Shown here: positions 11,283 through 42,327 of the stretch, in pieces
Layout of the letters: every line of letters begins with the position of its first letter
Position numbering within the stretch: position 1 is the stretch's first letter
IMG/VR virus record: IMGVR_UViG_3300025127_005641
Coordinates: 1-55,986 of that record
Source: a virus
Length of the DNA stretch: 55,986 bases
Strand: one strand, 5' to 3'
Notes under the pieces: model-generated
The model's database searches: none
What the model was told of the DNA's origin: nothing
The model's input: only the letters and a program-made list of their open reading frames with translations
Translations under genes and position numbers: made by a program

Positions 11283-11307
11283 GGGTTCCTTGACGGAACC
11301 CTTTTTT
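11283..11307 (+). terminator. Rho-independent terminator with promoter element in its loop
   Basis: Stem GGGTTCC/GGAACCC (7 bp) with loop TTGAC and a six-T run (11302-11307). It ends the hsp20 transcript. The loop plus the next base reads TTGACG, which is 17 bases upstream of a TATAAT, so the loop also forms a -35 box. Confidence 0.92.
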
Positions 11308-41124: not shown

Positions 41125-41364
41125 ATGTCTGAGCAACAACAACATCTTGCAAGTTTGCTAGAACAAAGGCAAACTCTTGTTAATGAAATAAATGAATTGA
41201 ATAATAAGGCAGCAGCAAAAAAAGAATTAGTTCTTCGTGCATTGGGTGCAATAGAATACTTACAGCAAATTGGTGTAACTCTTCCAAAAGAAGGAGAAGA
41301 AGCACCATTACCAGAACCACAAATACCAGTGGAACCAGAAGTGGTAAAACAATCAGCAGAATAA
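41125..41364 (+). CDS. Coiled-coil protein, 79 aa
   Basis: MSEQQQHLASLLEQRQTLVN starts a coiled coil (about 1-50) with heptads through AAKKELVLRALGAIEYL, then a Pro/Glu-rich tail. Probably a small oligomeric structural protein; it faces the minus-strand secreted module. Function unknown. Confidence 0.65.
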   Translation: MSEQQQHLASLLEQRQTLVNEINELNNKAAAKKELVLRALGAIEYLQQIGVTLPKEGEEAPLPEPQIPVEPEVVKQSAE

Positions 41365-41370
41365 TAAATA

Positions 41371-41390
41371 TGCCAGTTAGCAAACTGGCA
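41371..41390 (+). other. Perfect 8-bp hairpin
   Basis: TGCCAGTT (41371-41378), loop AGCA, and AACTGGCA (41383-41390). It follows the coiled-coil gene and precedes the talC promoter. There is no T-run, so it is a weak or factor-aided terminator, or an RNA-processing signal. Confidence 0.6.
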
Positions 41391-41398
41391 CATAAGGG

Positions 41399-41427
41399 TT
41401 GACAATAATCTAAAATTGTAATATATT
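41399..41427 (+). promoter_or_regulatory. Sigma70-type promoter for talC leader
   Basis: TTGACA (41399-41404), a 17-base spacer, then TATATT (41422-41427). The -35 is perfect and the -10 has one mismatch. Transcription would start near 41434, at the first hairpin of the structured leader. Confidence 0.75.
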
Positions 41428-41433
41428 ATATTT

Positions 41434-41623
41434 GTTGGACGCAACATGGGAGTGACTGAATAAACTTACTGGCAACCGCTAGTTAAGGTGATGAGACACA
41501 GGTGGTGCTGCTGCAGCGATGCAGAACCGATTCAACCAATCGGGTCTCAGGCAATAACGTTTTTACTTCTGTAGTAATGCCCGTTATTTGTTGGTACACA
41601 GGAACCCAACCTCCCTCTTTTTT
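41434..41623 (+). ncRNA. Structured RNA upstream of talC, unknown family
   Basis: A non-coding stretch of about 190 bases that folds well by eye. Hairpins: GTTG/CAAC (41434-41445); CTTACTGGC with GCTAGTTAAG, loop AACC (41465-41487); a three-way junction closed by TGAGAC (41492-41497) and GTCTCA (41544-41549) containing GCTG/CAGC and CCGATT/AATCGG (41527-41543); AATAACG/CGTTATT (41553-41588) enclosing TTACT/AGTAA; and GTTGG/CCAAC (41590-41610). GGGAG (41448-41452) can pair with CTCCC (41611-41615), sealing the domain, and a six-T run follows at 41618-41623. It is either a terminating small RNA or a cis-regulatory leader of talC. Confidence 0.65.
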
Positions 41624-41643
41624 GACTATATAAGAGAAATAAT

Positions 41644-42327
41644 ATGAACAATTCATCAAAGACTATGAAAATTTTTCTTGATACCGCAGATACTCAAGCA
41701 ATTAAAGAAGGATATGATACTGGATTGGTAGATGGAATTACTACCAATCCTTCTTTAATTATGAAGAGTGGTAGAAATCCCGAAGATGTATACCAAGAGT
41801 TAATTGACTTGGGTATACCCGATATAAGTATGGAGGTGGTGGGTAATGCTCCCTCTATGGCTTTAGAAGGAGCAAGACTTGTTAAAAAATTTGGTAAAGA
41901 TCAAACTACAATTAAAGTTCCTTGTACACCAGATGGTTTATGGGTATGTAAACAGTTATCAAAAGACTTGATAAAAGTAAATGTAACTCTTATATTTTCA
42001 CCAGCACAGGCAATACTTGCTGCAAAAGCAGGTGCAACATATGTTTCACCATTTGTAGGTAGAGTTGATGATAATTCATATGGTGGTCTATGTCTTATAA
42101 AAGATATTGCGAATGTATATGCAAAACAAAATTGGAAACAGACTGAAATATTAGCAGCTTCTATCAGAAATGTAAGAGATGTAGGTAGAGCATTTGAGTA
42201 TGGTGCTAACATATGTACTATACCAACAGGAGTATTTGATAAGATGTATAAGCATGTATTAACTGATGCTGGATTGGCACAGTTTGATAGGGATTGGGCA
42301 GAGGTACAGATCGGATTGACTGATTAA
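41644..42327 (+). CDS. talC: Transaldolase TalC
   Basis: A small transaldolase of the TalC/fructose-6-phosphate aldolase type, moving three-carbon units in the pentose phosphate pathway. MKIFLDTADTQAIKEGYDTGLVDGITTNPSL is the standard N-terminus, and TIKVPCTPDGL carries the Schiff-base lysine (about residue 90 by the longer start). GANICTIPTGVFDKMYKH follows near the end. The longer start (MNNSSKT, ATG at 41644) has AAGAGA upstream; the ATG at 41665 would match other cyanophage TalC. TalC is a known cyanophage auxiliary gene, thought to push carbon to nucleotide precursors. Confidence 0.93.
   Translation: MNNSSKTMKIFLDTADTQAIKEGYDTGLVDGITTNPSLIMKSGRNPEDVYQELIDLGIPDISMEVVGNAPSMALEGARLVKKFGKDQTTIKVPCTPDGLWVCKQLSKDLIKVNVTLIFSPAQAILAAKAGATYVSPFVGRVDDNSYGGLCLIKDIANVYAKQNWKQTEILAASIRNVRDVGRAFEYGANICTIPTGVFDKMYKHVLTDAGLAQFDRDWAEVQIGLTD

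Follow-up and report, generated by a model that had tools for sequence, protein, structure and literature searches.

A manA RNA upstream of talC in a cyanophage genome: evidence suggesting a portable RNA that brings its own promoter, and not a dedicated transaldolase switch

What might a structured RNA lying immediately ahead of a viral transaldolase gene control, if it controls that gene at all? The question is raised by a 55,986-nucleotide stretch of viral DNA (IMG/VR record IMGVR_UViG_3300025127_005641, hereafter the window), in which a first-pass annotation placed a large structured RNA between a sigma70 promoter and talC and proposed that it could be either a terminated small RNA or a switch controlling the transaldolase gene. 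The gene itself occupies positions 41665 to 42327 of the plus strand and matches PF00923 (172 bits) and phrog_440. It more likely starts at MKIFLDT than at the ATG at 41644; the record AG-345-L05, in which the same RNA-talC arrangement is found, has no ATG equivalent to that at 41644 and reads TAATAAG there.

Identity and fold of the RNA

A covariance-model search of the whole window (cmscan) identifies positions 41433 to 41620 (plus strand) as manA RNA (Rfam RF01745), with a score of 187.2 bits (gathering threshold 55.2) and a match covering the full length of the model (positions 1-192). The interval originally marked, 41434 to 41623, corresponds to this RNA plus three bases, and the accompanying statement that it resembles no nameable family was mistaken. 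manA is the sole Rfam family found in the window. The wcaG, PhotoRC (including PhotoRC-II) and glutamine (glnA) RNAs, which had been suggested for comparison, are likewise structured RNAs of cyanophages, and PhotoRC-II and Glutamine RNAs share some contigs with manA (L033, L096, L022), but none of them matches the window at gathering score; other Rfam families appear at the manA locus only as sub-threshold noise. The marine phage origin expected of a manA member is found as well, the window being a virus record and its BLAST relatives being cyanophages and marine single-cell viruses. The talC-side element is a copy of manA from a T4-like marine cyanophage.

manA was first reported in 2010 as a riboswitch candidate from marine metagenomes and cyanophages, and it is classed as cis-regulatory both by its original authors and by Rfam (Weinberg et al., PMC2864571). 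Its structure was updated in Rfam 14.3 with a ZWD-based alignment containing 48 significantly covarying pairs (PMC7779021), and its regulatory role was still termed unverified in 2023 (PMC9964418); no functional study of manA RNA was found in the literature searched. The window copy matches the motif end to end in sequence and structure and shares with it a cyanophage source and a position upstream of a sugar-phosphate gene. It is structurally ordinary, differing in that it lacks the extra 3' hairpin trailing many relatives.

The prediction of a large structured RNA was borne out, and every stem named on first inspection is present; two further hairpins, at the 5' and 3' ends, also belong to the fold. 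Specifically, the RNA (all features on the plus strand) opens with the hairpin TGTTG-GACG-CAACA (41433 to 41446), which varies in length and has 65% of cells paired in the MAFFT alignment. There follows the 5' strand of a long-range closing helix, GGGAG (41448 to 41452), whose partner CTCCC (41611 to 41615) is placed by the Rfam alignment and covariation, and which is 100% paired in 64 sequences. Within this helix lie an AACC-loop hairpin (ACTGGC/GCTAGT, 41468 to 41483, strands 41468-41473 and 41478-41483; 97% of cells paired) and a junction spanning 41492 to 41549. Because the stem closing the latter, TGAGAC/GTCTCA (41492-41497/41544-41549; 99% paired, with double changes at all 6 pairs), encloses three hairpins, this is a cloverleaf-like four-way junction; the three-way version described earlier had the correct closing stem but overlooked a CAG/CTG hairpin. 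The AATAACG/CGTTATT stem (41553-41559/41582-41588, within the element at 41553 to 41588) is 98% paired, with double changes at 7 of 7 outer pairs, and encloses a nested TTAC/GTAA stem (41563-41566/41574-41577; 71% of cells paired) that aligns poorly. Finally, the hairpin GTTGG/CCAAC (41590 to 41610; 100% paired) adjoins the closing helix. Only the opening hairpin and the TTAC/GTAA stem fall short of the 93-100% pairing seen in every other helix, probably because these two vary in length and are poorly aligned by MAFFT.

The evidence that decides for this structure is covariation. Among the matches listed, 176 manA sequences from viral contigs and isolates were reduced to 64 with less than 93% identity, the window included, and the Rfam helices together with a proposed loop contact were projected onto their alignment. 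Standard pairs make up 93.2% of the result and 34 pairs are changed on both sides, versus 35-44% pairing and 9-13 double changes when the structure is slid by 1-3 columns; no shuffle control was as high as the real structure on any measure. The compensatory changes sought in related phages are thus present, as would be expected of a conserved manA structure, and they extend to the closing helix, where an A-T to T-A swap in GGGAG is seen in two of the 64 sequences and where P-HM1 and MED4-213, with RNAs 96-97% identical to that of the window, carry the compensatory pair GGGTG/CACCC.

More than 50 columns are invariant among the 64 sequences, many of them located in loops. Two such loops, TGGT (41503-41506) and ACCA (41535-41538), could pair, and 173 of the 176 matches listed keep both GTGGTG and ACCA as loop sequences. 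Since these loops are nearly invariant, their conservation is compatible with a putative loop-loop contact rather than a demonstration of it. The tentative pseudoknot marked in the 2010 figure (PMC2864571) may be this same contact.

The fold shares several features with tRNA: a four-way junction, a 6-bp closing stem that runs on into a 5-bp hairpin, and first and third loops that may touch each other. Similarly, a low-scored cloverleaf link between the manA and tRNA models has been reported (PMC3692125). In contrast to a tRNA, the third loop (NNACCA) is no T-loop and a free CCA end is absent. With the T-loop consensus and CCA end lacking and 0 tRNAs found by ARAGORN in the window, tRNA identity was rejected, and the likeness is one of resemblance only.

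The 5' and 3' ends

A sigma70-type promoter, TTGACA-N17-TATATT, does lie ahead of the RNA as initially proposed, at positions 41399 to 41427 of the plus strand; it matches 11 of 12 consensus positions and ends 5 nt before the RNA. Among relatives, a promoter-like pair of elements with at least 10 of 12 matches precedes the RNA in 147 of the 150 distinct upstream sequences, versus 15 of 880 random stretches from the same loci. Given this recurrence, the 5' end of manA probably coincides with the start of transcription, and the RNA would, as far as sequence can tell, possess the promoter of its own that is expected of a stand-alone small RNA. At two loci that lack a clear promoter, L109 and L058, a tRNA gene seems to sit immediately upstream of the RNA (tRNA-Thr by ARAGORN in L109; judged by eye in L058).

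At some sites a terminator-like hairpin carries TTGACA in its arm or loop while its T run serves as the promoter spacer, producing a combined terminator and promoter. Such sites occur at position 11290 (plus strand) of the window and upstream of manA in L012, L013, L036 and L054. Overlap of this kind was rejected as a hallmark of manA (18 of 104 manA promoters), since it is not specific to the family and is also seen at 17 of 235 other promoter-like sites. A perfect hairpin at 41368 to 41393, between the upstream open reading frame (41125 to 41364) and the talC-side promoter, is terminator-like on the minus strand only.

The run TTTTTT noted after the closing pair is present (41618 to 41623, plus strand), but it is no conserved terminator: at the matching locus AG-345-L05 reads CTCCCACCCTAATATTTTG in its place, many relatives lack it, and it is lineage-specific. 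A free small RNA, as once envisaged, is the preferred reading, though the T run no longer serves as its basis. Canonical terminators lie between the RNA and the next gene at 11 of 106 loci, versus 0 of 106 after shuffling. Among 139 distinct 3' ends, 7 are followed by a tRNA 4-18 nt past the RNA, with additional downstream tRNAs recognized by Rfam (e.g., in L017 and L047), and 61 have an open frame within 120 nt. In S-SSM7 (L212:2504-2775) the manA match stops one base short of an annotated tRNA-Gly, an arrangement in which maturation of the tRNA 5' end would free manA as a discrete RNA. By eye, TATATAAGAGAA (41627 to 41638, plus strand) is common to the RNA-talC spacers of the window and AG-345-L05.

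Many relatives carry a second hairpin, GACCTAAGATGCA..GGGCAGATGGTC, which was found by pattern in 98 contigs (e.g., L015:3492-3528) and lies directly 3' of manA RNA in 97 of them, the remaining one (L154) starting too close to judge. The 5' part of manA is seen just upstream in 84 of these contigs, and 13 are cut or diverged there with the 3' end of manA visible. This hairpin precedes several different genes. Its outer stem has one compensatory version (AACC/GGTT, present in L022 and L115), its inner stem varies, and its internal-loop bases are conserved and kink-turn-like (UAA bulge, GA/GA). It has no matching family in Rfam 15 and is missing from the manA locus of the window. Because the relatives comprise the matches listed by a first scan together with those of a second scan that required this hairpin, frequencies within the family depend on the sample.

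Genomic neighbours and copy number

Among isolates, manA is found after pstS (P-SSM4, P-RSM3, P-SSM3), after the major head gene gp23 (P-HM1, MED4-213, P-RSM4, S-TIM4, MbCM1, S-SSM5), between regA and purL (P-SSM2), before gp32 and not talC (P-HM2), before a Nol-like carbamoyltransferase gene (P-SSM7) and against tRNA-Gly (S-SSM7), as well as directly before talC (P-RSM6) or shortly before it with one gene between (P-TIM68). For its part, talC has been reported at variable positions, often near tRNAs (PMC3037559). Measured round the circularly permuted genome, talC and the RNA are separated by about 44 kb in P-SSM2, 10 kb in P-HM2 and 62 kb in both P-HM1 and MED4-213. In the last two phages the RNA adjoins gp23, yet it is their RNAs that are 96-97% identical to the window RNA; in AG-345-L05, where the arrangement is the same and talC is 87% identical in DNA, the RNA is only about 80% identical.

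Exactly one copy of manA is present in each of 16 of 16 manA-bearing phage records searched whole with the covariance model, records that were chosen via BLAST matches to the RNA, include some near-duplicates and one fragment (AG-345-L05), and were searched under stricter filters by which weak matches can be lost. No manA match was detected in ten other cyanomyoviruses. S-TIM5, S-SM1 and S-SM2, in which no manA was detected, show talC among the tblastn matches listed. In this small, non-random sample, the manA-bearing records are mostly Prochlorococcus phages and the ten without a match were isolated on Synechococcus according to their records.

In isolate genomes, several annotated hypothetical proteins overlap manA RNA (L197:2591-2764 and L208:2505-2711, both T4-GC 428; L198:2483-2659, L203:2556-2660 and L205:2647-2838). 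Some of these are probably artefacts, and the T4-GC 428 cluster in P-SSM4 and S-SSM5 may itself be artefactual, reflecting conservation of the RNA. When bacterial genomes were scanned with a strict pattern, two hits emerged, one on a contig with gp46/gp47- and UvsW-like proteins (L224) and one on a contig with virion-type proteins (L223); both contigs thus carry genes that are phage-type by eye, and neither hit was retained as a bacterial member. Gamma-proteobacterial copies were reported in 2010, and a strict pattern may miss such copies.

At 173 loci the downstream genes fall into 35 clusters, a count made approximate by one cluster in which talC and a DUF6561-like gene are merged. In a tree built from 107 RNAs, in which only 14 of 103 inner branches are well supported, the label of the downstream gene changes 77 times, versus 80.7 when shuffled (8 of 200 shuffles as low) and a minimum of 34. 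The talC label changes 11 times for 12 rows (11.6 shuffled), and the well-supported branches alone force at least 6 talC changes. The exception is gp32, which is clustered on the tree (13 versus 20.4 changes). RNA lineage is therefore nearly independent of the downstream gene, and the consistent regulon or gene function expected of a riboswitch is not seen among these clusters, though talC and gp32 recur. The recurring neighbours are gp32 (22 of 107), talC (12), a phosphomannomutase-like gene (6) and Hsp20 (5), with mannose-6-phosphate isomerase and thyX (the latter by motif only) also found repeatedly; this pattern agrees with insertion-prone sites surrounding mobile genes, and no less well with a cis role of broad scope.

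Stand-alone RNA or leader

A switch controlling the transaldolase gene finds no support in this survey: relatives precede 35 clusters of downstream genes, lineage hardly tracks the neighbour, and several phages with talC carry the RNA elsewhere (at least 10 kb away) or have none detected (S-SM1, S-SM2, S-TIM5). A talC-specific switch is disfavoured by the one-copy census, the RNA tree and the talC phages without detected manA alike, and dedicated control of talC by manA is poorly supported. These data suggest instead a portable RNA with its own promoter. A promoter of its own, an interchangeable neighbour and one copy per genome lead us to read manA as a stand-alone phage RNA whose product would be the RNA itself, acting as a discrete molecule, a reading to which we assign about an even chance (roughly 0.5). 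The broader proposal, that the family now filed as a cis-regulatory riboswitch candidate consists of stand-alone, relocatable, trans-acting RNAs, part of them extended by the second hairpin, is more tentative and falls somewhat short of even odds.

Under the stand-alone reading, a host-type sigma70 promoter would start transcription at the 5' end of manA. The RNA folds compactly over about 190 nt, with the cloverleaf-like junction described above, and it occurs as a relocatable unit, one per genome in the phages examined, that freely exchanges the gene beside it. The main product, made by host polymerase, would be the RNA itself, which would act, perhaps in trans, on a partner from host or phage. 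A downstream terminator or the processing of an adjoining tRNA could define the 3' end of the RNA, or transcription could run on into the next gene, here talC, which would then be affected only incidentally, if at all. Several observations weigh against the stand-alone reading: the open frames within 120 nt of 61 of 139 3' ends are consistent with a leader, neighbours are non-random, with several genes recurring and gp32 clustered on the tree, the RNA tree is weak, and manA is filed as cis-regulatory both in Rfam and by its discoverers.

The locus itself adds just another copy to an RNA already catalogued. Of more consequence is the survey of its relatives, which provides a testable reason to doubt manA RNAs as gene-specific switches and names what might be sought instead, a discrete RNA in infected Prochlorococcus. 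If this is true, ocean cyanophages carry a conserved non-coding RNA, and in either case the data sharpen the cis-versus-trans question for the family.

Less probable, though the most serious competitor, is a cis-acting leader (a riboswitch, or one sensing a protein or the ribosome) that lets a signal useful to many phage genes govern whichever gene comes after it, in this case talC. Such a leader would account for the usual place of manA shortly before an open frame, its riboswitch-like size and conservation, and the recurrence of talC, gp32, phosphomannomutase-like, mannose-6-phosphate isomerase, Hsp20 and thyX genes, as first reported in the 2010 paper (PMC2864571). It is harder to reconcile with the single manA copy in all 16 records searched, with an RNA lineage almost independent of the downstream gene, with talC lacking detected manA in other phages, and with tRNAs and terminators that intervene before the next gene; nor do the terminators, at 11 of 106 loci, or the lineage-specific T run suggest an expression platform shared among relatives. 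Improbable in turn is a general-purpose 5' leader that would stabilise or insulate any transcript from its promoter, for example against host RNase E, without sensing: manA probably makes up the extreme 5' end of its transcript and any neighbour would suit such a role, but the more than 50 invariant columns, many in loops, far exceed the needs of a protective hairpin. Chance hairpins in an intergenic spacer can be dismissed: in their favour, folding energy on its own is only mildly unusual (z -1.6, with 15 of 200 shuffles folding equally well, and for this reason dropped as evidence of structure), but the full-length Rfam match and the strong covariation against both controls already refute them. 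Folding of the opposite strand is no better than that of shuffled sequence.

Two minor observations were made by eye. Firstly, CTCCC could form an antiterminator pairing with downstream GAGGG-type terminator arms in L089 and L093, which is probably due to chance. Secondly, the stretches GGTGAT and ACCTCC resemble ribosomal SD and anti-SD sequences.
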